Assembly (NCBI GenBank): GCA_016213775.1
Contig: JACQZR010000295.1
Span: 1 to 38,288 of the forward strand
Direction of reading: 5' to 3'
DNA from: Acidobacteriota bacterium
Lineage (GTDB): Bacteria > Acidobacteriota > Terriglobia > Bryobacterales > Bryobacteraceae
Length of the DNA: 38,288 nucleotides
Of this stretch, positions 9,803-31,926 are shown piece by piece. Each line of letters begins with the position of its first letter. Positions within the stretch are counted from its first letter, which is position 1. Both the position numbers and the translations under genes were made by a program. Below the pieces are notes generated by a model. The model was not told the origin of the DNA and searched no databases. It was given only the letters and a program-made list of their open reading frames with translations.

Positions 9803-11350
9803 ATGAAAACGTTCCTCACCATTCTTCCCCTGACGCTTCTCGCGGCGGGGTTTCCGCTGCGCGCCGAGACCGTTCATGGCACATTACGTTACATGGACTC
9901 CAACGGAATGGTGCACCCCATTGCCAATGCCACGGTGGAAATCTGGCGCTGGCGGTGGCGCTGGGGGATGTTCAGTGGCTACGACTGGTTTAAGGACGGC
10001 TACGCCCTTACCAATGAGAACGGCTATTTCCTGACTGCGCTGCCATTTGAGGGCGGAGGCGTTGTTTGCTCGGTGCGCGTTCTGGCGAATAACCAGGCGG
10101 CGGTGGTGTATAACGAAAACTACGGCGGTACTTTCTATGCCGAGCCGGGGCATCCTGCCTCGGGGTTCAGGCTCAAGGTAAATTGCCCTTCGGATGTCCT
10201 CGACTTTTCCTGGGATTTTTGGGATCCGGCCGTGACCCGCCACTATCACGCCGCCGAATCGATTCGCCAAGCGTATCTGTACGTCACGCAGAATCGCGAC
10301 CCGATGGAGACCGACCCGCTGCCACAGGTCAACGTGATTTTCAGGGATTCCACGAGTGACCCATTCGATGGAATCATCTTGCCGAAGGGGTCGGGACTCC
10401 AGACAGTGACCGTGCTCGCCGCCTACGCGAAGTTCATGCTGGCGAAAATCAGTGGAACCGGCTCCAAGGCGAATACGGACGCACGAAAGGCGTGCGCGGG
10501 ACAGGCATTTGCCGAAGGCTTCACGCGCTTCTTTCCGCGGGCAGTGCTACGCAAGTTTCCCGAGTGGGCATTTGAAACTCCGAGTCAGATCGAAACCGCC
10601 AACCGCGAGCTGGAAAATGCCTATGTGGCCGGTGAAGTCATCGGCCAGTATGGGAATTGCGGTCTCATCACGCCGGACCTTATTCCGGGGCTGATTGCCG
10701 CGGCGCTCTGGGACCTGGCTGATGCGTCTTGCGGCCAGTCCTCCCGTTGCGACCGCGGTTCGGCGATCGAGGACTTCGACAATGCCTCGGATCTCGATGG
10801 CCTCATTCTCAAGGTCATCGACCGCGACATGCCCAGCGGGTACGACTTCCCCACACTGACACGTTTTTACACGGGTTTTGACAAGCGCCGTTTCGGAGCG
10901 CTCGATTCGATCTTCAGCCACTATGGACTACCAGTCCCTTTGCGGCTGTTTTACAGCGATTGGCGGGGGGACAACTTCAGCACGGCCACGAGCAAAGGGA
11001 TGCAGGACGCGATCAACGCAGGGTACCGTTTCGTGAGAATCGAAGGCTACGTGTTTCCCAATTATCAGAATGGAGCCGTGCCGCTCAAACTGTACTGGGG
11101 CCGTTCGGACAACTTCACCACGGCCACGCCGGCAGGGGAGCAGGATGCGCTCGCGGTGGGGTACACGCTGGCACGTGTCGAGGCCTACCTCTATCCGAAT
11201 CCGCAGCTCGGAACAGTGCCTCTGAATCTGTACTACAGCGTAGCGCGAGGCGATAACTTCACCCTTGCCACGACGACGGCCGAGACCGACGCACAAAACG
11301 CCAGCTACAGATTCGTGCGCAACGAAGGCTACCTTCTGCCGGTGAACTGA
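9803..11350 (+). CDS. Exported metallopeptidase-like protein with degenerate zinc site and three C-terminal repeats
   Basis: 515 residues. The ATG at 9803 has GGAGG eight bases upstream and opens a signal peptide (MKTFLTILPLTLLAAGFPLRAE). A transthyretin/carboxypeptidase-regulatory-like beta domain (about 20-110) and the following core align with the protein at 20093-21754. Where that protein has HEYAH, this one has AAYAK (residues 206-210), so both zinc histidines and the catalytic Glu are gone; the downstream AEGFTRFF segment is kept. It is therefore probably a pseudoenzyme. The C-terminus (about 377-515) holds three repeats of ~45 residues, each with PLxLxY, a DNFxTAT motif and a GYxxxRxEGY-like end. 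They resemble the DUF5648-type beta repeats of secreted bacterial proteins and replace the fascin-like repeats of its paralogues. It likely sits in a transcript with the CHAT gene upstream. Confidence 0.82.
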   Translation: MKTFLTILPLTLLAAGFPLRAETVHGTLRYMDSNGMVHPIANATVEIWRWRWRWGMFSGYDWFKDGYALTNENGYFLTALPFEGGGVVCSVRVLANNQAAVVYNENYGGTFYAEPGHPASGFRLKVNCPSDVLDFSWDFWDPAVTRHYHAAESIRQAYLYVTQNRDPMETDPLPQVNVIFRDSTSDPFDGIILPKGSGLQTVTVLAAYAKFMLAKISGTGSKANTDARKACAGQAFAEGFTRFFPRAVLRKFPEWAFETPSQIETANRELENAYVAGEVIGQYGNCGLITPDLIPGLIAAALWDLADASCGQSSRCDRGSAIEDFDNASDLDGLILKVIDRDMPSGYDFPTLTRFYTGFDKRRFGALDSIFSHYGLPVPLRLFYSDWRGDNFSTATSKGMQDAINAGYRFVRIEGYVFPNYQNGAVPLKLYWGRSDNFTTATPAGEQDALAVGYTLARVEAYLYPNPQLGTVPLNLYYSVARGDNFTLATTTAETDAQNASYRFVRNEGYLLPVN

Positions 11351-11969
11351 CGGAGCGCCGGCTCATGCTTGTCGGCGTCCCGAAGAAGGGGTGGAGAGTC
11401 CCGCAAAGCGGGTGGCTTGAGGAGTTGGACCGCCTCAAAGCCAACCTCAGAGCCAGCCTCAAAGCCGGCCGGTCTCTGGGTGCAGGCGTCGCACGCCGCG
11501 CGCCTCATTGCGTGATTCAAACCTGCCCGCTCTTCCCATCCGCGGTCTCCTGCGCGCGGATGTATTGGCGGACTGGCTCCAACTCGAATCCGACGGTGGA
11601 CGCTGCGTAGTCGCGAGCCAAGAAGTGCTCTCCTGTAAAGTCCCGCTCCTTGCCACACAGCCGGGCCGATAGGGATGGAGCTCTTACCTTTCAGAAACCC
11701 AAGCGCCCCTGCTCTCTGTCCCCACCAAGCCGTCCCAATGACGTTGACTGTCGGCCCTCGGGGGCACCTTAAGACCGCCGTTAACAATTTGTGGTGTGTT
11801 AGCCGTTTTGGACCACGTTCGCGAAGGTCCTTGTCGAAGGGCGATTCGACGCGCCGATGCGAACCCCAAGAAAAATAACTCCTCCGGTAATCGGCCCGCC
11901 TTTTTCGCTTCCTCAGATACTGTCGGGAGCACAAAGCTCCACCGACACAAGAAAACAAGGAGAACGAAA
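11351..11969. other. Intergenic region with an RHS-core remnant; otherwise no gene seen
   Basis: 619 bases between two plus-strand genes. No open frame here has credible coding character apart from the short RHS-like remnant at 11580-11655 on the minus strand. The last ~100 bases hold the leader of the 11970 gene. A weak inverted repeat near 11358-11386 follows the stop of the 9803 gene but lacks a T run. Some of the rest may be further RHS debris too diverged to identify. Confidence 0.5.
11580..11655 (-). pseudogene. Remnant of an RHS-repeat core
   Basis: On the minus strand, 25 codons read GKERDFTGEHFLARDY followed by AASTVGFEL. This resembles the conserved end of RHS core domains (GKERD, then TG, then YF.ARYY, then GRF). 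No start, no upstream repeats and no extended frame are present, so it is at most a scrap. The match is short and judged by eye. Confidence 0.42.
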
Positions 11970-12773
11970 ATGAAACGCGCATTGTTGGCACTTATGACGG
12001 CGGCAGTCGTCAATGCTCAGGTTTTACCCGAGGGCACCACGGTGACTCTCCGGTTGGAAGAGGCAATCAGTTCCGCGACGGCGGAGAAGGGCCAGCCCAT
12101 CGAGTTCACCGTGATGGAAGATGTTCTCTCCGGCGATACCGTGGTCCTCAAGCAGGGTGCGCGCGCACTTGGAGCCATTACCGAGGCCGAGCCGAAGAAG
12201 AGAATGGGACGTTCCGGCAAGGTCGACTTTACGGTGGAGAAGGTGCGCGCCGTCGATGGCAGGTACGTCACGCTGCGGCCAACCAAGAGCAATTACAAAG
12301 GTCACGGCAACGGGCTGAAGGTCGGATTGATTGCAGCCGGTGTCTCGGCCGTGTGCTGGGCCTGCGCGCCCGCGGCCCTGCTGATCAAGGGTAAGGATGT
12401 CAGCATCCCCAAGGGAACCCGCTTCAACGTGTTTACGGACAACTCCTATACGCTGTCCGCGACGACGGCGGACCGCCCTCCCGTGGCGGCGCGAATCGAG
12501 GAGCGGCCCCAGCGTCAGGCGATCGAGTCGCCGACGCTGTCCACCTCCACCGCCAGCGTCACCATCAATTCTTCTAGCGCCGGCGCAGAGATCTCCGTCG
12601 ACGGAGTGTTCATGGGCAGCACGCCCACCACCATGAATCTCAACGCAGGCAGGCACAAGATCGTCGTCTCCGATGCGCAATCCACCTATGAGCGCGAGAT
12701 CGTGGTCACCGCCGGCGGCAAGATCAATATCAATGCCCAACTCATCCCCATCGCCCTGGCAGCCAAGCACTGA
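11970..12773 (+). CDS. Exported PEGA-domain protein
   Basis: 267 residues. The ATG at 11970 has AAGGAG nine bases upstream and a short signal peptide (MKRALLALMTAAVVNAQ). Residues about 18-160 form a beta-rich region: VLPEGTTVTLRLEEAISS, then SGDTVVLKQGARALGAI, a pattern seen in exported acidobacterial proteins with a 'resistance to permeation' type strand order. A hydrophobic stretch at 116-139 carries two Cys (VCWACAP). Residues about 193-255 are a PEGA domain (VTINSSSAGAEISVDGVFMGSTPTT in the genome, ending with VTAGGKININAQL). PEGA domains are known in surface-layer and envelope proteins. It heads a compact operon with the thioredoxin-like and Cys-rich genes (45- and 107-base gaps). Confidence 0.85.
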   Translation: MKRALLALMTAAVVNAQVLPEGTTVTLRLEEAISSATAEKGQPIEFTVMEDVLSGDTVVLKQGARALGAITEAEPKKRMGRSGKVDFTVEKVRAVDGRYVTLRPTKSNYKGHGNGLKVGLIAAGVSAVCWACAPAALLIKGKDVSIPKGTRFNVFTDNSYTLSATTADRPPVAARIEERPQRQAIESPTLSTSTASVTINSSSAGAEISVDGVFMGSTPTTMNLNAGRHKIVVSDAQSTYEREIVVTAGGKININAQLIPIALAAKH

Positions 12774-12818
12774 AGTAGAGAAGTCCGGCCACCGGGCGTC
12801 GAAAGGAGCTAGATCAAC

Positions 12819-13319
12819 ATGAACAAAGTACAGAGAACGTTGGAGATTCTGGTCAACGTCGCCATCCTGGTGACAGCCGGTCTGGTGATTGCGACCCTGG
12901 CAGGTGGGTATCGGAACACGGGCGGTATGGCCTCGAACCCACACGAAGGAACGAAGCTGGCGATCGAGGGACACGACTGGAGCGCCGTACGCTCAACCGT
13001 TGTCCTGGTCCTGGACACCAAATGCCGCCATTGCGCGGAAGGGACGCCCTTCTATCGGCGTCTGGCTGAGGCGGCGCGGCGCGAAAAGGCCGGGCTGTTG
13101 GCGATACTGCCGCAGGCGCCGGCGGATGGGAAGAAGTATTTGTCCGAATTAGCTGTGAACGTGAACCAGGTGCGGCAGGAAGATCTGGTCAAGCTGGGCT
13201 TCCGTGGTACGCCTACCATCCTGGTTGTGGACCGGAAGGGCGTCGTGAAGCGGGCATGGTCGGGAGTGCCAGCGTCGCAGGATCAGGCGCTCAAAGAGTT
13301 TGCGGACCTCATTCGTTAG
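12819..13319 (+). CDS. Membrane-anchored thioredoxin-like protein
   Basis: 166 residues. The ATG at 12819 has GGAG at good distance. One N-terminal transmembrane anchor (about 9-30, ILVNVAILVTAGLVIATLAG) is followed by a thioredoxin-fold domain with a CRHC redox motif (Cys69, Cys72) and a cis-proline loop (GFRGTPTILVVD, Pro132). The fold predicts a periplasmic thiol-disulphide exchange function. The next gene encodes a secreted peptide with six cysteines, an attractive substrate, but that pairing is inference. A decayed copy of the anchor region lies at 22214-22322, where AILVTAGLVIATLAGG is identical. Confidence 0.87.
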   Translation: MNKVQRTLEILVNVAILVTAGLVIATLAGGYRNTGGMASNPHEGTKLAIEGHDWSAVRSTVVLVLDTKCRHCAEGTPFYRRLAEAARREKAGLLAILPQAPADGKKYLSELAVNVNQVRQEDLVKLGFRGTPTILVVDRKGVVKRAWSGVPASQDQALKEFADLIR

Positions 13320-13426
13320 CGATCGGTGAACGATGCCGTTCGCAGGCGATTCCTGCTCGCAGGCGACCCTGCGGGAGAAACAAGTGGCAAACAACAATTT
13401 AGCTGAGATGAGAAAGGAGAACGAGA

Positions 13427-13657
13427 ATGTTCACGATGATTAGGAAACGGCTGCTTTCGCGGTTGGCCATCCTGGCGGTTATGGTTGCCTCGTTAGCGGT
13501 GGTGGCGCCAAGTCCGGCGCGGGCTGCAAGACCCGGCGAAGGTGGGAATTGTCCCCCTGGTTATATCGAAACGACTTGCTATTTGGTACAGTGCTACTAC
13601 TGGGGAGAACTCGTCTGTTGGTTCTACCCATACAGTTGCTGCGCCGAATACAATTAG
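13427..13657 (+). CDS. Small secreted cysteine- and aromatic-rich peptide
   Basis: 76 residues. The ATG at 13427 has AAAGGAG at good distance. A clear signal peptide with RKR n-region ends near PSPARA (about 33), leaving a mature peptide of ~43 residues that starts ARPGEGGNCPPGY. It carries six Cys (42, 51, 56, 64, 71, 72) and about ten aromatic residues, among them YYWGELVCWFYPYSCC. I do not recognise a family. The even Cys number, export signal and neighbouring thioredoxin-like protein suggest a disulphide-stabilised mini-protein. It could also be the precursor of a modified peptide, but no modifying enzyme is seen. A strong terminator follows. Confidence 0.78.
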   Translation: MFTMIRKRLLSRLAILAVMVASLAVVAPSPARAARPGEGGNCPPGYIETTCYLVQCYYWGELVCWFYPYSCCAEYN

Positions 13658-13697
13658 GGGCGAGCTTTCACACGGCATCGCTGAAGTTTCACATCGG

Positions 13698-13734
13698 AGG
13701 CCACCAGCCGGCAACGGTTGGCGGCCTTTGTTTT
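13698..13734 (+). terminator. Rho-independent terminator after the Cys-rich peptide gene
   Basis: AGGCCACCAGCC pairs with GGTTGGCGGCCT across a short GGCAAC loop (one mismatch and one G-U pair), followed at once by TTTGTTTT. It closes the 11970-13657 operon and separates it from the second CHAT gene. Confidence 0.8.
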
Positions 13735-13870
13735 GCGTGTTGTTGGCCCTGCCCGCCCGGTGTTGCAGGACGACGCCGGATTGTTCGCCAGCGGCCGGCC
13801 CGTCGCGAACAGACACACAAGACACACAAACACACACAACGCGGGCCTTCCCAGTTGGCCTTGCCTCATG

Positions 13871-13876
13871 TAAACT
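13871..13876 (+). promoter_or_regulatory. Candidate -10 element for the second TPR-CHAT gene
   Basis: TAAACT ends nine bases before the ATG at 13886, in the same position as TACACT before the first CHAT gene. No ribosome binding site lies between. A CA-rich tract (ACACACAAGACACACAAACA and on) occupies 13811-13839 just upstream. Confidence 0.4.
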
Positions 13877-13885
13877 ATCCTCGCG

Positions 13886-16800
13886 ATGATGCCAGTCCAC
13901 GCTCTCCTTGGTGTTTTACTAGCCGTCGCCTCTCCGGCTCAAACCCCCGCACCCCAGTCTCTGGCGCAACAGTTGGTCCGCGCCAAGACCGAAGCCGAGC
14001 GGAACAAGCTGATTGCGAAAAGCCCGCAATCCGTCACTCCGGCACTGCTCCAAGAGGTGGAAACAGAAATCGAGAAGCTGCAAGACATCGGCCGGCTGGC
14101 GGAAGCAATTCAAGCCATCGCATACTCGCTCCCACTCGCGGACCGCATCCAGGACACCAGCGGGAAGGCCGCTCTGCTGCGCCGCCGCGGCTCCGTGGCG
14201 CTCAATCAAGGCGATAATACGCTGGCTGAGTCCTCCTACACGGAAGCCCTGGCGCTCTACCAGGCGCGCAACGATGCCGGTGGAATGGCGCGGGCTCTGG
14301 CCGGGCTCAGCGCTTGCTTCTTCCGCCGCGGCGATACCAAACGCGCATTCGAATTGGCGCTACGCGCCATCGAGACCGGCGGCAAGAGCACCGACGAGCG
14401 CAGTCTTCAGGCGGCGCTGAATGTGCTGGGTCTGCTGTACGAGAACACCGGAGAGTTGGACCAGGCGGTTGCCACCCACCAGCGCAGCATCGATCTGGCG
14501 CGGCGGTGCAAGGATCCGGGCTGGGAAGCACGTGCGTTGAACAATCTGGCGATCGTCCACTACCGCCGCGGCGGCTACGACGAGGCGCTGAAGCTGTTCG
14601 AGGAAGCGATCCGGTTGTGGCGCGGGCAAGGCAACACGGTAGACATTCCAGGCACGCTGGCGAACATGGCAACAGTGCACTCCGTCAGAGGCGACCGTCT
14701 GCGCGCCGGCGAGACTCTCGAGATGAGCCTCACTCTCACACGTGAGATGGGCCGGATGGACTCGGTGGCGGCGATCCTCAATAATCTCGGTACAAACCGC
14801 CTTGAGCTGGGAGACCGCAAAGGCGCAATCTCCTTTTTCGAGCAGAGCCTGGCCCTGGCAACCAGCCAATCCAGACCGGCCGAAAGGATGCTGCCACTGG
14901 TGAATCTGGGCTTGGTGTATGACAGGCTCGGATCCTACCGGCGCGCGCTCGCCTACTATCAGCAAGCCCTCGACTTATCCCGAAAACTCAACGACAGCGC
15001 CACCACTGCGTCCATTCTCAGCCCGATGGGCTCGCTGTATGAGACGCAGTTCGATCTGAAGCAAGCCGAGGCCTACTATCGCGAGGGTCTGAAGATCGGC
15101 GAGAAGCTGGGCAGCAAGAGCGCGATCGCCCAGGCGGAGCAGGATCTCGGCCACCTCGCTCAGCGGCGGCGCGAATTCCCGCAGTCGGCCACACACTATC
15201 AGCGTTCCATAAAGTTGTGGGAGGAGATGTCGGCGTTCAGCTCAACGGCGCAAGGCTACGCCGGACTGGGAGAAGCGCTCGGAGAGCTGCGAAAGTTTCC
15301 AGAAGCGGATCTTGCGTTTGAGAAGGCGCTATCCGCCGCGGAGAAGAGCGGTGAGAAGGGGTACCTCGGACACGTTCTGGTGGGCCTCGCCCGGATTCGT
15401 CTGCGTGAGAACAAGCCGTCTGAGTCACTGGCCGCCGCGCGGCGAGCCATTGAGATTGGGGTACTCATTGACGAGCTCGGTCTGCAATCCTCTGCCGCTA
15501 CCGCGGCGGGGAAAGCACTACGTGCGATCAACCAGCCTGACGAGGCGCGGCGTGCCTTTGAAGACGCCATCGCCAAAGTGGAGCTCATTCGCGAGGAAGT
15601 GGCCGGAGGGGAACAACAAACGCAAAGCTACCTGGAAGGCAATCTCGAACCGTACCACCACCTGCTCGCCTTGTTGCTGGAGCAAGGGCGTCCCGATCTG
15701 GCCTTTGCCGCCGCTGAGCGCACCAAGGCCCGCGTGCTGCTCGACGTGCTCGGTCAGGGTAGAATCACGATTAACAAAGCCATGACTGCCGCGGAAACCA
15801 GCCGCGAGAACCGGCTGCGTCTGGAGCTTGCGAACTGGAACAAACAGATTGCCGCGCAGGGCGAGAACCCCAAATCGGAACCCGCGCGGATGGTGCAACT
15901 TCGGGATGGGCGCGACGCCGCGCGCCGTGCTTACTCCGCTTTTCAAATGTCGCTCTACGCAGCCCATCCGGAACTGCGCATCAGCCGCGGCCGGTCAGCT
16001 CCGGTGACAGCAGGTGAAGCACAGCGTCTACTGCCCCAACCATCGGCGGCAATCCTGGAATACGCGGTAATGGAGACGGAGACGCTCCTCTTCGTCATCA
16101 CTACGGACGGCTTGTTCTCACATCGCATCCCGCTTGGTCAAGTAGCCCTGGCGCGGCAAGCGGAACAGTTCCGCTCGCAGCTTGCGCAGCGCAGCCTCGG
16201 CGTCGGCGACACTTCCCGCAAACTATACCGTCTCCTCGTTCAACCGGCGGCGAGCCGGCTGGAAGGAAAATCCACTCTCATCGTCGTACCCGACGGCGCT
16301 CTGTGGGAGCTTCCGCTACAGGCATTGATCTCGGAACAGAACCGGTACATGATCGAGGATCATACGATCTCTTACGCGCAGTCGGTGAGTGCGCTCAGGG
16401 AAATGTCGAAACCGCGCAACAGCCGCGGAGCCGGCCTGCTGGCGATCGGTAACCCGGCGCTGCCAGCCAACCTGCCCGCGCTGCCCGGCACGGAAGTCCT
16501 GGTTCAGAAGCTCGGTGCGCTGTACGGTTCCGCGAACAGCCGTGCCTACGTCCGCATGCAAGCGGATGAACAACGATGGAGAATGGAAGCGCCGCGATAC
16601 CGGGTTCTGCACCTGGCCACCCACGGCGTGCTGGACGACGCGAGTCCCATGTATTCCCACTTGATGCTTGCGCCCGGATCGAGTGGGAAAGAAGATGGCC
16701 TTCTCGAAGCCTGGGAGGTGATGGAGACCGATCTGAACGCCAGCCTGGTTGTGTTATCCGCGTGCGAAACGGCGAGAGGACGCGTCGGCGCCGGAGAAGG

Positions 16801-17035
16801 CATGACCGGCTTGAGCTGGGCCTTCTTCGTTGCGGGTGCGCCGTCGGTTGTGGCCAGCCAGTGGAAGGTGGCGGAGCTGAGCACCAACGAGCTGATGCTG
16901 GAATTCCATCGCAGTCTGCAAGAGGGCAAATCCAAGGCCGAGGCGTTGCGCGGGGCCGCGCTGCGGTTGATGAAGGATAAGCGCTACCGGCATCCGTTCT
17001 ACTGGGCGCCATTTGTGCTCATCGGCGCATCGTAG
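13886..17035 (+). CDS. Secreted TPR-CHAT (caspase-like) protease, copy 2
   Basis: 1049 residues, highly similar along its whole length to the protein at 6553-9714, with the same order of signal peptide (MMPVHALLGVLLAVASPAQ), tetratricopeptide array (about 55-600), linker and C-terminal CHAT domain. The catalytic pair is His913 (HLATHG) and Cys960 (LSACETARG). The ATG at 13886 aligns with the start of copy 1. Similarity extends about 60 bases past both stop codons (CTTGCC, TTTCTGAA, GCAGG, GCGGAA in order), showing a segmental duplication that included flanking DNA. Both copies are followed by a metallopeptidase-like gene; here the gap is 533 bases because of an inserted repeat element. Confidence 0.9.
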   Translation: MMPVHALLGVLLAVASPAQTPAPQSLAQQLVRAKTEAERNKLIAKSPQSVTPALLQEVETEIEKLQDIGRLAEAIQAIAYSLPLADRIQDTSGKAALLRRRGSVALNQGDNTLAESSYTEALALYQARNDAGGMARALAGLSACFFRRGDTKRAFELALRAIETGGKSTDERSLQAALNVLGLLYENTGELDQAVATHQRSIDLARRCKDPGWEARALNNLAIVHYRRGGYDEALKLFEEAIRLWRGQGNTVDIPGTLANMATVHSVRGDRLRAGETLEMSLTLTREMGRMDSVAAILNNLGTNRLELGDRKGAISFFEQSLALATSQSRPAERMLPLVNLGLVYDRLGSYRRALAYYQQALDLSRKLNDSATTASILSPMGSLYETQFDLKQAEAYYREGLKIGEKLGSKSAIAQAEQDLGHLAQRRREFPQSATHYQRSIKLWEEMSAFSSTAQGYAGLGEALGELRKFPEADLAFEKALSAAEKSGEKGYLGHVLVGLARIRLRENKPSESLAAARRAIEIGVLIDELGLQSSAATAAGKALRAINQPDEARRAFEDAIAKVELIREEVAGGEQQTQSYLEGNLEPYHHLLALLLEQGRPDLAFAAAERTKARVLLDVLGQGRITINKAMTAAETSRENRLRLELANWNKQIAAQGENPKSEPARMVQLRDGRDAARRAYSAFQMSLYAAHPELRISRGRSAPVTAGEAQRLLPQPSAAILEYAVMETETLLFVITTDGLFSHRIPLGQVALARQAEQFRSQLAQRSLGVGDTSRKLYRLLVQPAASRLEGKSTLIVVPDGALWELPLQALISEQNRYMIEDHTISYAQSVSALREMSKPRNSRGAGLLAIGNPALPANLPALPGTEVLVQKLGALYGSANSRAYVRMQADEQRWRMEAPRYRVLHLATHGVLDDASPMYSHLMLAPGSSGKEDGLLEAWEVMETDLNASLVVLSACETARGRVGAGEGMTGLSWAFFVAGAPSVVASQWKVAELSTNELMLEFHRSLQEGKSKAEALRGAALRLMKDKRYRHPFYWAPFVLIGAS

Positions 17036-17568
17036 GGGCGAGGCGTCTTGCCAGATTCTTTCTGAATTGCAGGGTGATACCGCGGAACATCTCGGCTCCT
17101 TTCGGCTTCTCCGCGGCGCTCTCTCGTAGCGGCCGTAAATGAAGATACCGGGCGTTCTGAGTTTTCCCGCGACTTGTCGCGACGTGCCTGCCATCGGCCT
17201 GACCGCGGGCCAGTGTGGAGCGGCGTAACTAACCTCAATACTGTGCACTTCACGTGGGGCGGGCAATCCTGGCAGGCAATCTTGCCCGCAGCCTGGCTTT
17301 CAAGCCGGCAAGCGCCGGGTGGAAACCCGGCGGCAGCCAGGATCGGCTGCCCCACCCAAGCTGAACAGTATCGTAACTAACCTCAACTAACCTCATCACA
17401 AAAAATGCTCCGGCAGGTAATACGCGGGAGAGAACCTCATCCTCGCTACTGAGAAGCCGCTAGGCGGGCCCGTGGGCGAAGAAACTCGGGCCGTGAGAAA
17501 CCGCGACGTTCTGTCAGACGCTTTGGGTAACGGTTTCTGGATAACTGAATGAAATGAGGAGATGCACC
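17036..17568. other. Intergenic region with a palindromic repeat element; no gene
   Basis: 533 bases between CHAT copy 2 and the next gene. The first ~60 bases are the duplicated downstream flank of the CHAT gene. A 102-base palindromic element lies at 17254-17355, flanked by copies of CGTAACTAACCTCAA (17224-17238 and 17372-17386). CTAACCTCA is repeated once more just after. No credible coding frame. Confidence 0.6.
17254..17355. repeat. REP/MITE-like palindromic element with terminal inverted repeats
   Basis: Starts GTGGGGCGGGCAATCCTGGC and ends GCCAGGATCGGCTGCCCCAC, imperfect 20-base inverted repeats (17 of 20 positions pair). The interior has nested hairpins (GGCTTTCAAGCC and CCGGGTGGAAACCCGG). 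Such elements are dispersed in acidobacterial genomes. The 15-base direct repeats CGTAACTAACCTCAA lie 15-16 bases outside both ends, so they are not a simple target duplication touching the element. Confidence 0.65.
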
Positions 17569-21810: not shown

Positions 21811-21820
21811 TTACTTGAGC

Positions 21821-22466: not shown

Positions 22467-22494
22467 ACGAAGTTCGATACACGAAGTTCGATAC
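22467..22494. repeat. 14-base perfect tandem repeat
   Basis: ACGAAGTTCGATAC occurs twice in a row at the boundary between the 22904-gene scrap and the sigma-promoter scrap. It may mark a recombination junction. Confidence 0.6.
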
Positions 22495-22497
22495 CCC

Positions 22498-22620
22498 TTG
22501 CATTAGGCAGTGCAACGTATATAATCGGGCAAGCGATCACTGGGCAACGACCGAATCGAGGGGCGGATTGGAGCGCACATGACGGCCATCGCTCCAAGGC
22601 AGCCTTGGCAAGCTGGTTTT
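22498..22620 (+). pseudogene. Duplicated promoter and start of the 32071 sigma-like gene
   Basis: TTGCAT, a 16-base spacer and TATAAT (22520-22525), then GAGGGGCGGATTGGAG and an ATG at 22579 parallel 31989-32090 closely. The first residues read MTAIAPRQPWQ against MPIAPREPSQ in the intact gene. Similarity then stops, although the frame stays open to 22866. The promoter may still be active, but a functional protein is unlikely. Confidence 0.65.
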
Positions 22621-22903
22621 GTGCTTCCCCACACGGTGGGCCCTACCAGATTTACCCCGACCTCGGACGTGAGGGGCCGGAGACGAGCAACACCAGGGTC
22701 AGCCCTCCTCGTCTTTTTCACTCGGGCGGAGCCGCGACAGGATGCCGACGCTCGGCCCCACCCGAGAGCGGGCTTGTCCTTTCCCGCCGGCTGGCGGAGT
22801 GATCAAAAAGAAACATGCCATGGTAATCGGAGCCGTGTTTTTTACTCCGTTGGCATTGGGAGGTAAGAACCATGAAAGAGAATGGGTTGAAGGGAGAATC
22901 CCA

Positions 22904-24262
22904 ATGATGAAGCCGTTACTGATCTCCGCATTGCTCCTGGCGGGAGCCGCGATTTTGTCGGCGCAAAACATGAACGATCCCTTGATGCGCTCGGTATACC
23001 AATACAACGAAGGGTTCCGAACGCTCATGGGCGACGCCAACAGAAACGCAATGCAACTTAGCGCCATGAAGAGCCGATTCATGTTGGAAGATCAGCTCCA
23101 GATGGCTGAGCTCGACAGGCAGTATCCTCCGGTGCTTGTCGTCTCGCGGGTGGGCCAGCGCATCTTCCCCAAGCGGGCCCGAATTCTCGGGGGAGAGAAT
23201 GCGAAGTCGGCGGAAGCGCTCTTTGAGTCTTACCTGGATGATTTCGAGATTGGATTGCGGAGTCGGCCGCACGCGCTGCTGGATTTCCCGCACACACACC
23301 TTGCGACAGCCTGGATGCTGTCCACCGTGAGACGCTACATGGTGCTACGGGGGCTGGACGACGTGTCGCCAGATCTGGCGCGAGACCTGTATTGGCGGTT
23401 CCGGCAGGCCAACCGCTCGCCTCAGGCGGCGAAGTTCATAGAGAACCTTCAGGAGGTACAGGCGCATTACGAGTTCTTGCTGATCGACAGTGTCAGTCTC
23501 GATGCGGACTGGCAGTCCGCGCGAATGAGAGGCGATCGCGGAATGATCGAGTCAATTCAGAAACGCGTGGAGCGGGGTTTTTCGGAGACGTTCGGCATCT
23601 CGAGCGCGGATTTGTTGCGCCAACTGGACGCAGTGCACGAAAGGACTCGCGGCAACGCGGCGGGGCGGACGACACTCCGCGTCTTGGCGCCGCCGGGCGG
23701 CTGGCGGCAGTTCGACTTTCAGAAGAGCGAAGACTTCGAGTATAAGTTGGAAGTCATGGCGGCGGGTCAGCTTGAGAAGGGTAGCGTTCACATCGGCGTC
23801 CGGGTGCAAAACGGCGACCGGACCATTTCGATTTCCGCCAGTCTGGCTGGCAAGACGATGGCGCACGCGGTGACCTACAAGCGCGCCGAAGGACCGCCCA
23901 ATTTCACAACCCTTCCGTGGGCGCAGACTGACTTTGGGAAACTGGTTGCCAGTCTCCTGTTGGCTCCGATGCCTGAACTGACTGCTCGCGTCCTGACTCC
24001 CGGCCAAAAGTGGTCGTCTCGCAACGGCCAGACGGAAGCGCAGTCCGAGATAACCGGCCCATGCAAGCAAGGTGAGGGTCTGAATGGACAGCAAGTGGCA
24101 GGGACAATTCGCCTTGCCGCATCAGCAGCAGTCCACATCATCTCCTATTGCCTGGGCTCCGATGTACCTTTACCTATCTCTGTAGACTACTTCCTTCCAG
24201 GAGTCTCTATTGCGGCCAACATGGTCCGACGGTCGGCGGCTGAACCAGCGATTCCCAGGTAG
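22904..24262 (+). CDS. Exported protein of unknown function, single-module paralogue
   Basis: 452 residues. ATG at 22904 with AGGGAGA upstream and a signal peptide (MMKPLLISALLLAGAAILSAQ); the frame is open upstream, but only this start gives export and a ribosome site. Residues about 73-245 (YPPVLVVSRVGQRIFPK, FPHTHLATAWML, LRGLDDVSP, YWRFRQANRSPQAAK, DWQSARMRGDRG) are highly similar to the first module of the protein at 1242-3128. After TTLRV the sequence passes directly to the beta-rich C-terminal part (FDFQKSEDFEYKLEV), skipping the second module of the larger protein. The last ~90 residues are unique. No catalytic motif recognised. The gene follows a scrap of its own sequence at 22343-22440. 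Confidence 0.85.
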   Translation: MMKPLLISALLLAGAAILSAQNMNDPLMRSVYQYNEGFRTLMGDANRNAMQLSAMKSRFMLEDQLQMAELDRQYPPVLVVSRVGQRIFPKRARILGGENAKSAEALFESYLDDFEIGLRSRPHALLDFPHTHLATAWMLSTVRRYMVLRGLDDVSPDLARDLYWRFRQANRSPQAAKFIENLQEVQAHYEFLLIDSVSLDADWQSARMRGDRGMIESIQKRVERGFSETFGISSADLLRQLDAVHERTRGNAAGRTTLRVLAPPGGWRQFDFQKSEDFEYKLEVMAAGQLEKGSVHIGVRVQNGDRTISISASLAGKTMAHAVTYKRAEGPPNFTTLPWAQTDFGKLVASLLLAPMPELTARVLTPGQKWSSRNGQTEAQSEITGPCKQGEGLNGQQVAGTIRLAASAAVHIISYCLGSDVPLPISVDYFLPGVSIAANMVRRSAAEPAIPR

Positions 24263-25827: not shown

Positions 25828-25920
25828 GGAACTCTTCCTGGAAAGGTTGGTTCAGTCCATTTCAGAACAAAAGATAATCGGCGCGGTAATCAGGCAGGCG
25901 CTTTACCATCCTAAAGAACA

Positions 25921-26110
25921 GGCGCTGAGAAACGGGAAACGGGACTCAGTGAAGAAGAGTAAAAGTCAGAGACGATGAGCTGAGCGCAGCGAATCGTCCG
26001 GCAGGCGATGATGCCCCGCAAAACTGGCGGCACTACCGACAAAAAGCGCGCCGGTAGTTTTCGTCAGGCTTGAAATTGTCAGGCTACGGGGTAGCGCGAC
26101 ATCCTTGTCC
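25921..26110. repeat. Flanking intergenic repeat, right copy (with internal insertion)
   Basis: GGCGCTGAGAAACGGGAAAC, GGGACTCAGTGAAG and, after about 97 additional bases, GTCAGGCTACGGGGTAGCGC followed by GACATCCTTGTCC. It corresponds to 24346-24452 upstream of the membrane-protein gene. Confidence 0.65.
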
Positions 26111-26349
26111 TTCCGGTGCGATGCCCTGCGAGATGCTCTTGCGAACCCTGCGGGGACTTTGGATTCCGGTCCGGTCCCCTTCCCTTACGTCCCACCACGA
26201 AGCCTCTGTCCAACTCCACTCCGTCTGCGGGCACTGGCTGCCGGAATGCACGGTTTCACCACGTCACCCTTGGATTACCCGCACCTGTCCCCGCACAGCC
26301 TGAGATGCCACGGAAAGAAAAGAGCCGCGTGGTAATACCTTCCCGAGCT

Positions 26350-26478
26350 TCGCATCCTCAAAACCAGAAGGTGATGGTGGAACGGCCCCGGCGGCTTCCC
26401 ATTGAAGAAAGAATATGCCGCGCCACTAGCCGTTTCCTCATCAGTTTTCGAATGAGTGAAATGAAGGGAGATAAGACA
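26350..26478 (+). repeat. Shared leader block, copy B
   Basis: GCATCCTCAAAACCAGAAGG, GGTGGAACGGCCCCGGCGGC, ATGCCGCGCC, AGCCGTTTCC and GAAGGGAGATAAGACA align in order with copies at 22001-22128 and 27057-27180. It directly precedes the small frame at 26479. Confidence 0.55.
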
Positions 26479-26583
26479 ATGAAATCCAACAATGAAATGA
26501 CGATCCAGAACGCCAGCGGAAAGGCCGGCGCGCTCATCGGTCACCACAACGTGACGATGCTGCCCGGAACGCGGGTGGCGTAG
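26479..26583 (+). CDS. Possible 34-residue peptide downstream of the shared leader
   Basis: ATG at 26479 with AAGGGAG nine bases before it. The product begins MKSNNEMTIQNASGKAGALI and ends LPGTRVA. It has no signal peptide and no cysteine. The first 35 bases resemble the start of the broken frame at 22129. It may be a genuine small protein, or the front end of a gene whose remainder is lost. Nothing in the sequence points to a function. Confidence 0.4.
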   Translation: MKSNNEMTIQNASGKAGALIGHHNVTMLPGTRVA

Positions 26584-26654
26584 AGCCCGCTGCACGGTAC
26601 GGCCCCCCGATCCTGTCGCGCAGTTACATTCCCCTCAGTCCGTCTGGCGGCGAT

Positions 26655-26668
26655 GTCACATCTGTGAC
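26655..26668. promoter_or_regulatory. Perfect inverted repeat GTCACA-TC-TGTGAC
   Basis: A perfect 6+2+6 palindrome 11 bases before the ATG of the decayed sigma gene. The 15 bases ATCTGTGACAGAATC (26660-26674) recur exactly, in reverse orientation, at 29639-29653. It may be an operator or part of a conserved sigma-gene leader. Confidence 0.4.
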
Positions 26669-26679
26669 AGAATCATGCT

Positions 26680-27015
26680 ATGAACGAAGTGCTCTCGGTC
26701 ATGCAGCTTCTGGCTGCCTGGGGGCACGGCGTCCGGGCGGCTCTGGAGCGTTGGAGCCGCGGGTCCATCGGGGATTGCGGTCAATTGCCAGCGCCTACCT
26801 CCGGCGCGGTCGCGGTCTCGGCAACCAAACCCTCCAGCCCCCTGAGCCTATCAACGAAGCCTACCTCCGTCTCATCGATCAACCGCAACCGGTTCAATTC
26901 GAGAACCGCGCACACTTTTTCGGGATCTCCGCCCGCATCATGCGTTTTGTTCTGGTGGAAACACGCGCGGACGCGCCATGCGTCGAAACGTGGCGGCGAC
27001 GCATGTCCGGTCACG
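26680..27015 (+). pseudogene. Decayed ECF sigma-70 factor gene (TIGR02999-like)
   Basis: Three frame segments together resemble the front of acidobacterial ECF sigma factors. First frame from the ATG at 26680: MNEVLSVMQLLAAWGHGVRA. Second frame: SIASAYLRRGRG, then LQPPEPINEAYLRLIDQPQP and VQFENRAHFFGISARIMRFV, matching region 2 (NEAYLRLIDQ, W-NRAHFFGIAA-LMRRILVD). Back in the first frame: RHASKRGGDA and VTLDEAW. At least two frameshifts are needed, and region 4 is missing. TIGR02999 naming is from memory of the family pattern. Confidence 0.72.
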
Positions 27016-27056
27016 CTAGACGAGGCGTGGCTGATCGCGCCCCCTTCCGCCCTGCA

Positions 27057-27180
27057 TCCGCCTTCTGGAAGCTCGTGGTGGAACGTCCCCTGCCGGCGAC
27101 GGGAATCGTCTCAAGCAGATTCGCCGCACCGCAGCAGCCGTTTTCACCCGGTTTCCGAAGGAATTCATTGAAGGGAATGA
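27057..27180 (+). repeat. Shared leader block, copy C
   Basis: GCATCCGCCTTCTGGAAGCT, GTGGTGGAACGTCCCCTGCC, GATTCGCCGCACCGCAGCAG, CCGTTTTCACCCGG and TTGAAGGGAA align with copies A and B. It ends ~30 bases before the ATG at 27213. Read as protein, part gives IRRTAAAVFTRFPKEFIEG, so a lost coding origin is possible. Confidence 0.55.
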
Positions 27181-27212
27181 GCTTGAAGGAGATTCAAAAG
27201 GAGGACCTCCCC

Positions 27213-29186
27213 ATGCAATCCGTACGCCTCATCTTCCGATCAGCCGCGATCCTGCTGCTACCGTTTCTTTCCTGTCTCGCGCAGCAGGAAGAAACCACCG
27301 TCAACATCACCGAAACCGACCTTATCGAAACAACCGGCATCGTGCACACCAAGTGGGTGTTCACCTATAATCCCCCTCGCGCTTATGACCGCGTCAAGCG
27401 GTTGTACCCGAATCTGTACGTACTGTTTCGGGACTATGGTCCGGAGCGGTCCAGGCTGGAGATCAACAAAGATACATTGAAGATCGAATCCGACGACGCC
27501 AAGCGCATGATCACCTTCACCGCTGATGTCCTGGGCCATGTTGTGAGCCGCCGCAACCGCTGGCAGATTCCCCTGCAGCCCAACGAGCAACTGTTGACCC
27601 AGGACGGCAACAAGATCATCACCGCTCTCCAAACCAGCCAACCCGGCAACAAGATCAGCGTCATCTGCACCAGCGTGCTGCCAAAGGATGCGCAGAACAT
27701 CCGAGTCGATCAGCAAGCCCACATGATTACCTACACGCTGCCGAAGATGCCTGCCGCCGGTCCCATCGAGCAGCCGCAGGTGGACGTGAGCATCCGCAGC
27801 AAGAAAAGAATCATGTCCGCTCTCTACAAGATCTACGGAGACCCCGAAGCCGGAGATGGGGCGTATTGGGTTTCGAAAGCCATCTTCATGAACACCGGCA
27901 AATCCCCCATCTATAACGTGAAAATCACGAGCCGTCTCGGCGACATCGCGGAGTCGAACATCGCCGAGCCCTATTCGGAGATCGCCGCCGGAGGCTCGGT
28001 CGTGGACTGTTACTACCCAACCATCCAAGCCCGTGCGGCTCAATTCAAGACCATGAATCCGCTTCAGCTATTCGTCCGCTACGAGTATGAAGACGCCAGC
28101 GGCAAGGTGTACTTTGGGGAGACCACACGCCGCGTCGAGATGCTGGGAATCAACCAGTTCGAGTTCTCCAACCTCAACGACGAGGATCGCAGCGATAGCT
28201 GGTTCGATTACTTCAACAATGCGCCGTTGCTGTCCGCCTACGTCACAAAACTGGATGATGTGGTGAAGCAGTTCGCCGGTTACGTGAGCACGGCCTCCGG
28301 CGGCGCGGACGCCAATATCAGCAAGGAAGGCGCTGTCCGTTGGCTCGAGGCCGCTTACAACATGCAACTGATGAACAACGTCTCCTATCAGACTCCTTCC
28401 GGCTTCGTCACCAAGGACCGTTCCAGTGGGCAGGACATCAAATATCCGCGGGATGTCCTGCGCGACAAGGCCGGCACCTGTGTGGATCTCGCGATTACCT
28501 ATGCGGCATTGGCCGAGGCGGTGGGACTGCGCGCTTACCTGATGCTCGTCCCCGGCCACGCCTTCGCGGTAATCCGCCTACCTGGCGGCGATCTCATGCC
28601 GGTGGAGAACACGGGACTCGGAGGGGGCAACCAACGTATGACGTTTCAGCAAGCCGCCGAGGTGGGGCTCAAGAACCTTCAGAAATACTACGGCGACGGC
28701 GTCTATTACCTCGTGGATGTGCAGCATCAATTGTCGCTGGGGCGCGTACCAAACCCCGAGCTGCCAGCGGTGGGAAATGACTTTCTCGAGAAGAGTGGCA
28801 TTCGCCGATTGGAGGACATGAAGTTCTCCCGCGGCCCAAGTCAGGGGAACCCGGCTCAAGGAGTCGCGTTCCGGCTCGTACACGACCATTTCGGCAACAA
28901 CCTCTCCGCGTATTGCATCGGCAGACTTACGGTGTCGGGCGACTCAGCGGCTTTCATCGCCGAGAGCGCTACCGACGGCCGCATGGACCGGTTCCAATTC
29001 CGGAAATCGGAGATTGTCGAGGTGAAGAAGAACAGGATGCCGATGGGACAGTTTGGCAGAGTGATGCTGCCCGCCTTCCACGTTCGCTTCACGAACGGAG
29101 CCAACCTCAACTTCGCCCTGGTCAATGAGCAGGGGGCAGGATTGCTCGCCGACACGGTGATCCTGGCCCTGCAACCCGGCCACTGA
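27213..29186 (+). CDS. Exported transglutaminase-like protein
   Basis: 657 residues. The ATG at 27213 follows AAAAGGAGG and opens a signal peptide (MQSVRLIFRSAAILLLPFLSCLAQ). Residues about 25-330 are beta-rich with no family I can name. A transglutaminase-like (papain-fold) domain lies at about 370-500: Cys423 in DKAGTCVDLAITYAAL, His449 in LVPGHAF, and Glu465 in MPVENTG as the likely acidic member. This order, Cys-His-acid, is typical of bacterial transglutaminase-like cysteine peptidases, although the acid is more often Asp. The C-terminal ~130 residues are beta-rich (MDRFQFRKSEIVEVKKN). A role in processing or cross-linking envelope proteins is plausible but not shown. It lies downstream of a decayed sigma gene. 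Confidence 0.85.
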   Translation: MQSVRLIFRSAAILLLPFLSCLAQQEETTVNITETDLIETTGIVHTKWVFTYNPPRAYDRVKRLYPNLYVLFRDYGPERSRLEINKDTLKIESDDAKRMITFTADVLGHVVSRRNRWQIPLQPNEQLLTQDGNKIITALQTSQPGNKISVICTSVLPKDAQNIRVDQQAHMITYTLPKMPAAGPIEQPQVDVSIRSKKRIMSALYKIYGDPEAGDGAYWVSKAIFMNTGKSPIYNVKITSRLGDIAESNIAEPYSEIAAGGSVVDCYYPTIQARAAQFKTMNPLQLFVRYEYEDASGKVYFGETTRRVEMLGINQFEFSNLNDEDRSDSWFDYFNNAPLLSAYVTKLDDVVKQFAGYVSTASGGADANISKEGAVRWLEAAYNMQLMNNVSYQTPSGFVTKDRSSGQDIKYPRDVLRDKAGTCVDLAITYAALAEAVGLRAYLMLVPGHAFAVIRLPGGDLMPVENTGLGGGNQRMTFQQAAEVGLKNLQKYYGDGVYYLVDVQHQLSLGRVPNPELPAVGNDFLEKSGIRRLEDMKFSRGPSQGNPAQGVAFRLVHDHFGNNLSAYCIGRLTVSGDSAAFIAESATDGRMDRFQFRKSEIVEVKKNRMPMGQFGRVMLPAFHVRFTNGANLNFALVNEQGAGLLADTVILALQPGH

Positions 29187-29302
29187 CTGCAACTTGTCTG
29201 GCATCGGCATGCACGCTTAATCGGCTTGGCCAAAAAGGAGCGGTTGCGGGTGGCCGTGGGATGCAAGGATCGCAAGCGTGTCAAGGGGATTGTGTCAAGA
29301 AA

Positions 29303-29318
29303 CGCGCCGCAAGGCGCG
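29303..29318. terminator. Short hairpin with GCAA tetraloop
   Basis: CGCGCC and GGCGCG pair perfectly around GCAA, a GNRA loop. It is 117 bases after the transglutaminase gene and has no T run, so termination is only a possibility. Confidence 0.3.
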
Positions 29319-29466
29319 ATGATGCGCGAAAGATGAAGATAGAATCCTCCGAGATCGCCTGGCGCAAGGCCGCCCCCGTGATCCCCGATCTCGGATGAAG
29401 CTGCCCTATGCTCTTGAGACGGCACTCTCCTAAACCTGCTCTCCGTTCCGGACCGCGCCATCAGCT

Positions 29467-29556
29467 CCTGTTTTCGACTTGTCCTGGGACGGGCAAATGA
29501 TCGCGGTGAGCTTCGAGACAGTGGAATCCGACATCTGGGTCATGTTGTCGCGCTGA
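29467..29556 (+). pseudogene. C-terminal scrap of a TolB/WD40-like propeller protein
   Basis: The frame reads PVFDLSWDGQMIAVSF, then ETVESDIWVMLSR and a stop. This fits the last blade of TolB-like or kinase-linked propellers (FDLSPDGKxIAF, then SDIWVxDL). Nothing upstream continues the match. Confidence 0.45.
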
Positions 29557-29703
29557 GAAGAGCAGCAATCAACCACTTTCGTCCGGCAGACGGGCCGCTG
29601 TAAAGCAAGAAGATTTTGATACTTCATGGCGCGGTGTGGATTCTGTCACAGATCAGGTAATCCGCGCTCCTGTTCTGCATCCGCAAGGAATCAGGAGGCA
29701 AAC

Positions 29704-31926
29704 ATGAAACTCAATCGGTCTTTTTCTAAGCGGATGTCAGTCGCATTCTGCTCGCTGTTCACTGTTTTGCTGGCGCTGCCGGCGGCAGCAAGAGTTACCA
29801 CTCCCGTTGCCATGAGCATCAATGCCATGGACGAGATCAAACCGAACTCGCCCGCAACCGTAATCGTGGTTCTGGAAGCCCTTCAGGATGTACCAGCCGC
29901 CTACATGAAGCTCGCGGTGCCGGAGTCCAGTTGGGTTTTGAATGAAGGGTCTCCCTATTGGTCGGGAACCATGCGGGCCGGTGAGGTCGTGAAGCTCACG
30001 CTGACACTCGTCCCGAAGGTGGCAAACCCCGAGCCGGTCCGTGGCAGCGTCGAGGCGCCAGGATGGGAACCCACCCAATCCATGCTCACCAGGGCGCCAC
30101 TCAAACCCGAGCCGGAGCAGGGTCCCTCGGCCAGCAAGGGATCCAGACCGGCGGAACGATCCGCAACAGCAAATGTAATCGCCACGGGCCAGTGCTTCTA
30201 CACGGAGAACGAACCCGTCGGCCTTCGCTTTGCCAAAGTCGAGCTTCGGGACGATGATTCGGGGGAGTTCAAAGCGGACGATTTCTGCGGTTCCGGAATG
30301 ACCAACGTCAACGGATACTTTCAAATTTCTGGCTCTTGCGGCGACCCGTTCCGGGACCTCCCCGACTACTTCGCGACGATCGTGATGAACAACAACACCC
30401 TGGAGATCAAGCCCAACGATTTCTTTGCAGGGACCTACACTTGGAGGCGTGGATACAAAGAGAACTTCCCAGGCGGGAATCTGGACTTTGGGTCACTGGA
30501 TTTGGGAAGTGCCACGCATACTGGGCGCAATGTCCTCCACATTCACAATCTCATCATGCAAGCGTGGGAATACATGGCAGGGTTGGGTGAGGGTGTCCCC
30601 AAAGTTCTCGTCGAGTACCCCGCCGCGAGCCTTGCCTACATTCCCGGCACTTGGCCTCTCGTCTCACGGATCTACATCCCCCAAGATTTCGAAGACGGGC
30701 AGGTTCTGGAGATGTTCGCGAATCACGTGTGGTATTCCATCGTTCGCACCAGCGCTGACAGCGGCACGATTCAGTCCTGGGCGCGATTTCACTCCGCGGC
30801 CATGCTTCAAGCGTTCGGCCGCCCGTTGGGCAGCTACAACGTCGAAACTCACCAGGACAATTACGGCAACGACCTCGCTCCCAATATTCTCTGGGATCTC
30901 TTCGATAGCGGCGATGACGACCAGCACGGCGAAGGCGCCGGCGCACGGGACGCCGTATCGATCCCGTTCAATGTGCTTTGGGACGTGGTCCGCCATCCGC
31001 TGTCCTACTCCGGCCAGTACGGATTTGAGACTTTCCTGCAGCATCTCTGGCAAAAGCAGCCCGCGTTGAAGAACCTGGTGATCGAAGTGTGCCGAGAGCA
31101 TCACCGGATGTATCCCTTGCCGGACCTGTTGGTGAGTGCTCCGGCCGTCTCCCAGACAGCGGTGACTCCAGGAGGGCAGCTCACTCTCACACCCAGCACC
31201 GTTTCGAACATCACTCCAGGGACAACATGGGGCCGGCCCTTTACTGTCAGGTACAGGCTTTCCGGCCCGACCTTAGTCACGCTGGTGGACTTTGGGGTGT
31301 CTCCCGTATACTCGTCCGGCAACTCCACCATTCAGGCCCTCTACGGCACGCCCCAAATCACTGTGCCCGAATCCACCCCGGAAGGAACTTACTACCTGGA
31401 GACGTGCGCCGATGTAACGGGGCAGGTCCCCGAGGAGAATGAAAACAACAACTGTGCCAAGACGGCTAGTCCCATCACGGTCCGCTATTTGAGGTACCCC
31501 GTTACCTTGCAGACGGTGAATGGCAGATACCTCACCGCTGTCGGCGGCGGCGGCTTGATCGACGACGTGATCCATTCGGATGCCACTGCCGTCGGAGATT
31601 GGGAGCGGTTCACGCTCGTTCAACTCGCCACTGGCCAGTGCGCAGTGCGGACGGTGAATGGCAGATACCTCACCGCAATGGGCGGCGGCGGTAGAATCTA
31701 CGACGTGATTCATTCCGACGCGACGGCAATTAACGCCTGGGAGAAGTTCGCGTTGTCACCACTGGGCGGCGGCAAATATGGAGTGCAGACGCTCAACGGC
31801 AATTACCTCACTGCCGTCGGCGGCGGTGGACGGCTCGATGACGTAATCCATTCCGACGCGACGGCCATTGGCTCATGGGAGACGTTCACAATTGGGGGGC
31901 TGCCAAGCGGAGCGTGCCAGAAGTGA
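29704..31926 (+). CDS. Exported metallopeptidase-like protein without zinc motif; CARDB and fascin-like domains
   Basis: 740 residues. ATG at 29704 with AGGAGG upstream and a signal peptide (to about LLALPAAA). The architecture parallels the protein at 17569-19974: Ig-like domain (about 31-125, ARVTTPVAMSIN), linker, transthyretin-like domain (about 155-240), peptidase-like core, CARDB (471-592) and three fascin-like repeats (597-740, e.g. NGRYLTAVGGGGLIDDVIHS). Where the homologue has HEYGH, this protein has EMFAN (336-340), and the TEGFPNFF segment is replaced by WARFHSAAM. Distant landmarks such as ILWDLFDSGDDDQH and CREHHRMYPLPDL are kept, so the fold is retained while zinc catalysis is almost certainly lost. 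Confidence 0.85.
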   Translation: MKLNRSFSKRMSVAFCSLFTVLLALPAAARVTTPVAMSINAMDEIKPNSPATVIVVLEALQDVPAAYMKLAVPESSWVLNEGSPYWSGTMRAGEVVKLTLTLVPKVANPEPVRGSVEAPGWEPTQSMLTRAPLKPEPEQGPSASKGSRPAERSATANVIATGQCFYTENEPVGLRFAKVELRDDDSGEFKADDFCGSGMTNVNGYFQISGSCGDPFRDLPDYFATIVMNNNTLEIKPNDFFAGTYTWRRGYKENFPGGNLDFGSLDLGSATHTGRNVLHIHNLIMQAWEYMAGLGEGVPKVLVEYPAASLAYIPGTWPLVSRIYIPQDFEDGQVLEMFANHVWYSIVRTSADSGTIQSWARFHSAAMLQAFGRPLGSYNVETHQDNYGNDLAPNILWDLFDSGDDDQHGEGAGARDAVSIPFNVLWDVVRHPLSYSGQYGFETFLQHLWQKQPALKNLVIEVCREHHRMYPLPDLLVSAPAVSQTAVTPGGQLTLTPSTVSNITPGTTWGRPFTVRYRLSGPTLVTLVDFGVSPVYSSGNSTIQALYGTPQITVPESTPEGTYYLETCADVTGQVPEENENNNCAKTASPITVRYLRYPVTLQTVNGRYLTAVGGGGLIDDVIHSDATAVGDWERFTLVQLATGQCAVRTVNGRYLTAMGGGGRIYDVIHSDATAINAWEKFALSPLGGGKYGVQTLNGNYLTAVGGGGRLDDVIHSDATAIGSWETFTIGGLPSGACQK

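Follow-up and report, generated by a model that had tools for sequence, protein, structure and literature searches.

Candidate glycan-binding pseudopeptidases encoded beside their HExxH-bearing relatives on an Acidobacteriota contig

A metallopeptidase-like protein that lacks its zinc-site motif, encoded close to intact relatives, raises the question of whether it has been kept for a non-catalytic task or is on its way to being lost. This question is posed by a contig of an Acidobacteriota bacterium of the family Bryobacteraceae (GenBank assembly GCA_016213775.1, contig JACQZR010000295.1, positions 1 to 38,288). The window, that is, the whole stretch of DNA analysed, is the entire 38-kb contig of an 11-Mb genome. 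Inside one 22-kb stretch of it, four genes, here P0001 to P0004, encode active and inactive relatives of one kind of metallopeptidase-like protein (Table 1): P0002 and P0003 carry the HExxH motif, whereas P0001 and P0004 have lost it. We propose, with moderate confidence, that P0001 and P0004 are glycan-binding pseudopeptidases.

Motif loss in two of four homologous proteins

The initial annotation had placed AAYAK (P0001), HEYGH (P0002), HEYAH (P0003) and EMFAN (P0004) at one aligned position, and these segments indeed shared columns in both an 8-core and a 22-protein alignment. P0001 and P0004 are each homologous to an active-looking peptidase (BLASTP E 6e-48 for P0001 and E 2e-152 for P0004, the latter in an alignment that spans the C-terminal module too). 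In both of them the two HExxH histidines and the catalytic glutamate are replaced, and a glutamate found ahead of the LWDL helix in most homologues is absent. The EGF glutamate is retained in P0001 and gone in P0004, where the catalytic loops have also been deleted; the pairing of MLQAF in P0004 with WTEGF in P0002 was taken from the pairwise BLASTP alignment, the multiple alignments setting the gap elsewhere and likewise leaving no glutamate there. A frameshift error as the origin of the HExxH loss was rejected: neither of the other two forward frames encodes an HExxH at either inactive site, so a simple frameshift is not the cause.

Structure models were made for the two inactive proteins. 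In these AlphaFold2 models AAYAK and EMFAN both fell within the helix aligned to the zinc helix, in blocks with a predicted local distance difference test score (pLDDT) of 84-96, the mean for the whole models being 66.6 (P0001) and 73.0 (P0004). A location of the inactive segments outside the zinc-helix position, which would speak against the annotated correspondence, was thus not observed; the helix position was read via the alignment, and the models drew on alignments to active homologues in which the motifs were already paired, so they are not independent of it. The intact frames and good ribosome sites attributed to the inactive copies were both seen. In fact all four frames are intact, with Shine-Dalgarno-like sequences (by eye) ahead of the starts of P0001, P0003 and P0004 (GGAGG/AGGAGG) and of P0002 (GAGG/AGGAG), while the annotated signal peptides correspond to N-termini that look signal-like by eye in all four proteins, suggesting that all are exported.

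Homologous cores and the presence or absence of the motif stood as annotated, but the four paralogues do not make up one set. They belong to two subfamilies, A, with P0003 (active) and P0001 (inactive), and B, with P0002 (active) and P0004 (inactive). Core identity is 34-39% within a subfamily pair, compared with 21-26% between the A cores and the P0002 core. The two members of each pair have the TTR-like domain and the core in common. Those of the B pair also agree in having an N-terminal domain, CARDB and a triple repeat at the C-terminus, while in the A pair P0003 ends in the triple repeat and P0001 in a DUF5648-like module. The GC content of the contig (0.607) is close to that of another locus of the same genome that holds a B homologue (0.616), with which codon usage correlates at 0.80-0.81 for P0001-P0003 and at a lower 0.70 for P0004. 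On this resemblance in GC and codon usage, assembly contamination was rejected as the source of the contig; for P0004 a foreign origin was rejected less firmly.

Three whole-genome profile searches listed 55 non-window homologues, every one of them with HExxH (motif read for 47 + 3 + 5), a count to be taken with the knowledge that the profile contained both inactive proteins, that first-look candidates were scored up to 5-8 per genome and that HExxH-less relatives could have escaped. The searches covered 396 genomes of the phylum, 237 of the family and 399 of the class, in overlapping sets, with matches in 28, 10 and 16 genomes, respectively, this genome included. Another 27 loci, from a contig scan by the HEYGHH pattern, were kept out of this census, and an earlier contig scan with the P0002 core gave no match. 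A tree of 17 cores requires two independent losses of HExxH, as forced by its starred branches. It leaves the placement of P0004 among the B proteins undecided and groups P0003 with a Haliscomenobacter plasmid protein, not with P0001 (support 92/85, not starred). P0003 being closer to the Haliscomenobacter protein than to P0001, the A pair do not look like fresh twins. By eye, this Haliscomenobacter homologue of subfamily A (7932-9851 of its locus) has a propeller-like repeat at its end where P0003 has the CBM92-like module.

Peptidase cores and C-terminal modules

Scans of Pfam and NCBIfam assigned none of the four proteins to a peptidase family. P0002 and P0003 carry HExxH and a downstream glutamate in an EG helix (WTEGF and WMEGF, respectively), and both are probably active as zinc peptidases. 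Across the 22-protein alignment, WxEG occurs in 19 rows and EG in 21, and homologues show HExxH, an EG helix beginning 32-49 residues later (where patterns found both) and an LWDLxD-type helix, a combination that is the gluzincin layout. The M36 (fungalysin) layout consists of HExxH, a downstream EG(W/F) glutamate and an LWDL-type helix; the likeness of the core to fungalysin comes partly from this layout and partly from database and structure matches. We call the cores M36-like, in clan MA(E), rather than M36 because the Pfam M36 model was matched by just 1 of the 22 family members (E 2.6e-4) and by none of the four window proteins. With the P0001 model, Foldseek returned four M36 structures (E 0.057-0.16, probability 0.72-0.89; 7qfy and 7qp3 at E 0.057 and ranks 18-19, 4k90 at E 0.10), ranked below hits to the TTR-like domain. 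This domain was recognised from below-cut-off Pfam matches (P0002 and P0004), a profile match to TTR-52 (E 0.01) and Foldseek matches.

The C-terminus of P0004 matches the CBM92 crystal structures 7zoi (E 2.1e-6) and 7zoh (E 4e-6), and a WExF motif is present in each of its three repeats. Beta-glucans are the ligands of the CBM92 proteins that have been studied, one of which needs the tryptophan of each WExF for binding at three sites, as told in a part of PMC11039641. As for the module of P0001, DUF5648 is presented in a section of PMC12853789 as a three-bladed domain with a possible role in glycan recognition. Glycan binding by the C-terminal modules is a prediction from sequence. Identity among the triple repeats of P0002, P0003 and P0004 is 64-74%, and because the A cores are only 21-26% identical to that of P0002, the triple-repeat module has probably moved between subfamilies. 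Three close copies of it were found in 201 genomes (the own genome and 200 relatives), all on this contig, with weaker matches in 3 of the 200 others. In an alignment of P0002 with seven further active B proteins, those seven stop after the CARDB domain. A plasmid of Priestia megaterium encodes a protein, annotated as a metalloprotease of the matrixin family, that contains a module similar to the DUF5648-like one (31% identical), which is another link of this type of module to peptidases.

Retained binding proteins or decaying duplicates

Eight active B proteins have 131 invariant columns in common, 31 of them in the catalytic segment and 100 outside it. P0004 retains 2 of the former and 58 of the latter (Fisher p 2e-7), or 2 of 17 versus 58 of 94 with gaps excluded (p 1.4e-4). 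The segment comprises P0002 residues 372-430, counted from a start at 17554, and its limits were set after viewing the alignment. The erosion of P0004 is selective for the catalytic segment. In the C-terminal module, the ratio of nonsynonymous to synonymous substitution rates (dN/dS) was 0.279/1.020 = 0.27 for P0004-P0002, 0.251/1.375 = 0.18 for P0004-P0003 and 0.14 for P0002-P0003. The GC content at third codon positions (GC3) is 0.71-0.72 in P0001 and P0004, versus an intergenic GC of 0.58, and P0001 codon usage correlates at 0.85 with the CHAT genes. The initial annotation had described the inactive copies as maintained, not dying. For P0004 this is strongly backed by the loss centred on the catalytic segment, the intact predicted sugar-binding sites and the module dN/dS of 0.18-0.27; for P0001 it is backed moderately, by the open frame, GC3 and codon usage, and selective retention was not significant.

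According to our proposal, all four would be exported proteins of modular build, in which an M36-like (clan MA(E)) core is combined with a prealbumin/TTR-like domain and, at the C-terminus, a module of glycan-binding type. P0002 and P0003 would be working zinc peptidases tethered to polysaccharide through that module, and P0001 and P0004, after losing HExxH in separate events, would have become non-catalytic binding proteins that retain the export signal, scaffold and glycan module. We infer that their dead cores serve as a spacer or a protein-binding surface. Since the catalytic loops of P0004 are gone and three predicted glucan-binding sites are present, the most likely main job of this protein would be to hold polysaccharide. 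A bolder version, which we regard as improbable, would have the glucan-binding module spread over two peptidase subfamilies and one copy per subfamily independently converted into a dead binder anchored on glycan, with live and dead copies sharing or competing for polysaccharide and the dead ones determining the site and the strength of action of the live peptidases.

A number of observations weigh against glycan-binding pseudopeptidases, and several of these also favour the view, unlikely in our judgement, that the inactive genes are decaying duplicates whose frames by chance are still open. No orthologue of P0001 or P0004 was found among the 237, 399 and 396 genomes searched in the family, class and phylum, respectively (sets that overlap), and constraint on the dead cores was consequently inferred from paralogues; core dS was saturated (about 3), so core dN/dS was not used. 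The branch to P0004 is longer (1.34 versus 0.74 to P0002, from an unresolved fork), that to P0001 (1.30) is little longer than that of P0003 (1.13, i.e. 0.33 + 0.80), and the P0001 losses are not significantly concentrated (11 of 29 columns retained in the catalytic segment versus 61 of 111 elsewhere, p 0.14, with just two active A proteins as reference). Decay does occur on this contig, as a broken CHAT remnant is present on it. Several features speak against decay of these two genes: their frames run open for 515 codons (P0001) and 740 codons (P0004), where the other two forward frames hold 11 + 13 and 14 + 24 stops, respectively; GC3 is above intergenic GC; the erosion of the P0004 catalytic segment is selective; and dN is well under dS in the C-terminal module of that protein. 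The remaining unfavourable points concern the assignment of cores and modules. The DUF5648 match of P0001 scored 23.9 bits, slightly under the gathering cut-off of 25; CBM92 matches are weaker in P0002 (E 6e-4) and non-significant in P0003 (E 0.1); and the C-termini were modelled at low confidence, with pLDDT <50 over most of the length of that of P0004. Only two Foldseek matches of the P0001 model reached E 0.001 or better, both to the TTR-like domain, and the P0004 model matched M1 metallopeptidases (6koz, E 4.3e-5, at rank 3) with TM-scores between 0.17 and 0.27, folds of plainly different kinds reaching similar E-values and no M36 entry being among the matches listed.

The initial annotation had suggested that the inactive proteins bind, inhibit, guide or act as decoys for the active peptidases. 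It is possible, though we doubt it, that they are such dedicated partners, for instance a shield, an inhibitor, a chaperone or a substrate-guiding subunit, in the manner of NTNHA, an HExxH-lacking relative described in a portion of PMC11766063 as protecting the active protein. The presence of active and inactive relatives within one 22-kb stretch agrees with such a partnership, and so does the C-terminal module of P0002, P0003 and P0004, which, being shared at 64-74% identity, could let the three proteins occupy the same ligand. However, within both subfamilies the inactive gene is separated from the active one by about 9-10 kb, the C-terminal module of P0001 is of another kind, P0001 is probably not sister to P0003, and other genomes of the family hold active B homologues without any HExxH-less copy detected. 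A gain of some other catalytic or metal-binding activity by the dead cores seems very improbable: P0001 has kept the third-ligand-type glutamate (FAEGF) and P0004 a histidine after the lost pair, but both HExxH histidines and the catalytic glutamate are replaced in both, the catalytic loops of P0004 are deleted and, without orthologues, an alternative conserved site is not recognisable.

Should the dead copies have a function, the locus would provide a compact natural experiment in the conversion of secreted peptidases into binding proteins, with two losses at a single locus and live relatives as built-in controls, and it would tie CBM92-type repeats to a peptidase family. If they are not functional, it is a well-documented yet ordinary pseudoenzyme case. 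Pseudopeptidases are already a known kind, as is apparent from a part of PMC11266112, and the novelty therefore lies in the family and the double loss. Our searches of the literature on pseudopeptidases, bacterial M36/fungalysin, CHAT-metallopeptidase and CBM92-protease, with most subscription journals outside their reach, yielded no pointer to the family of P0001-P0004 among the titles listed.

Neighbouring genes and comparison with known systems

The TPR-CHAT proteins P0005 and P0006 are encoded upstream of P0001 and P0002, respectively. Their co-location was rejected as more than a weak functional clue, because 40 pieces of the genome match P0006, 37 of them on other contigs, and because a search of nine loci that surround members of the peptidase family (several with short flanks and two being the same contig) gave no P0005/P0006 homologue. 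The CHAT gene remnant (35312-36105, +) runs across two frames, with a stop within the matched stretch. At 26664-29186 (+), a single open frame encodes a truncated extracytoplasmic function (ECF) sigma-factor fragment, then a signal-like stretch and then a transglutaminase-like protein with a partial match to the NCBIfam anti-phage ProA model (E 5.6e-15, 53.9 bits versus a cut-off of 1500). The products of 22742-24262 (+), without a Pfam match, and 1242-3128 (-) are paralogous (46% identity over 290 aa), and 36372-38243 (-) encodes a repetitive protein that by eye resembles a phage tail fibre.

Table 1. Positions in the window of the four genes, their motifs and modules, and the neighbouring TPR-CHAT genes.
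Feature	Positions	Strand	Description
P0001	9803..11350	+	inactive member of subfamily A, apparently exported, 515 aa: prealbumin/TTR-like domain at the N-terminus, dead M36-like core, DUF5648-like repeats at the C-terminus
AAYAK, P0001	10418..10432	+	replaces HExxH; residues 188-192, helix 183-199 of AlphaFold2 model
FAEGF, P0001	10508..10522	+	third-ligand-type Glu retained in inactive protein
DUF5648-like module, P0001	10949..11308	+	three repeats by eye; presumed glycan binder; PF18885 E 5.4e-05, 23.9 bits
P0002	17569..19974	+	apparently exported subfamily-B peptidase: HEYGHH, WTEGF, NHP; CARDB; CBM92-like C-terminus
HEYGH, P0002	18682..18696	+	aligned columns
WTEGF, P0002	18799..18813	+	putative third zinc ligand Glu
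CBM92-like triple repeat, P0002	19543..19968	+	two WExF, one WExL (WEKL, third repeat)
P0003	20093..21754	+	apparently exported subfamily-A peptidase: HEYAH, WMEGF, CBM92-like C-terminus
HEYAH, P0003	20771..20785	+	aligned columns
CBM92-like triple repeat, P0003	21329..21751	+	three WExF
P0004	29704..31926	+	inactive member of subfamily B, apparently exported, 740 aa counted from start 29704: TTR-like domain, dead core minus catalytic loops, CARDB, CBM92-like C-terminus
EMFAN, P0004	30709..30723	+	replaces HExxH; residues 308-312, helix 303-319 of AlphaFold2 model
MLQAF, P0004	30802..30816	+	opposite WTEGF in pairwise BLASTP alignment; third-ligand Glu lost
CARDB domain, P0004	31120..31458	+	PF07705 E 1e-06
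CBM92-like triple repeat, P0004	31495..31920	+	WExF in 3/3 repeats; 7zoi E 2.1e-06
P0005, TPR-CHAT protein	6400..9714	+	directly upstream of P0001
P0006, TPR-CHAT protein	13886..17035	+	upstream of P0002; 74% identical to P0005

Compared with M36 peptidases (fungalysin, clan MA(E)), the present family has the same HExxH, downstream EG(W/F) glutamate and LWDL-type helix, together with weak Foldseek matches of P0001 and 1 of 22 members on Pfam M36, but none of the four window proteins matches that model, the N-terminal domain here is TTR-like and two members lack the zinc site. The pseudopeptidases AEBP1 and CPXM of family M14 are, like the proteins proposed here, extracellular proteins with a dead metallopeptidase part, and a part of PMC11266112 has them binding matrix components. 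Their family is M14, whereas the core here is M36-like MA(E) with a function that is only predicted. AEBP1 and CPXM are also animal proteins, and the present ones bacterial. The likeness to NTNHA (M27) is that an HExxH-lacking relative is encoded in the cluster of the active one, as an excerpt of PMC11766063 has it, and it claims no sequence relation; here, in contrast, HExxH was lost twice, modules of glycan type are present and no complex is known. The beta-trefoil CBM92 modules of Chitinophaga pinensis (7zoh, 7zoi), matched by P0004 at E 2.1e-6, resemble the triple repeats in having three repeats that each close in WExF. In Chitinophaga pinensis these modules are joined to carbohydrate-active enzymes, as indicated in a part of PMC11039641, whereas on the present contig they are joined to peptidase and pseudopeptidase cores, with binding predicted.

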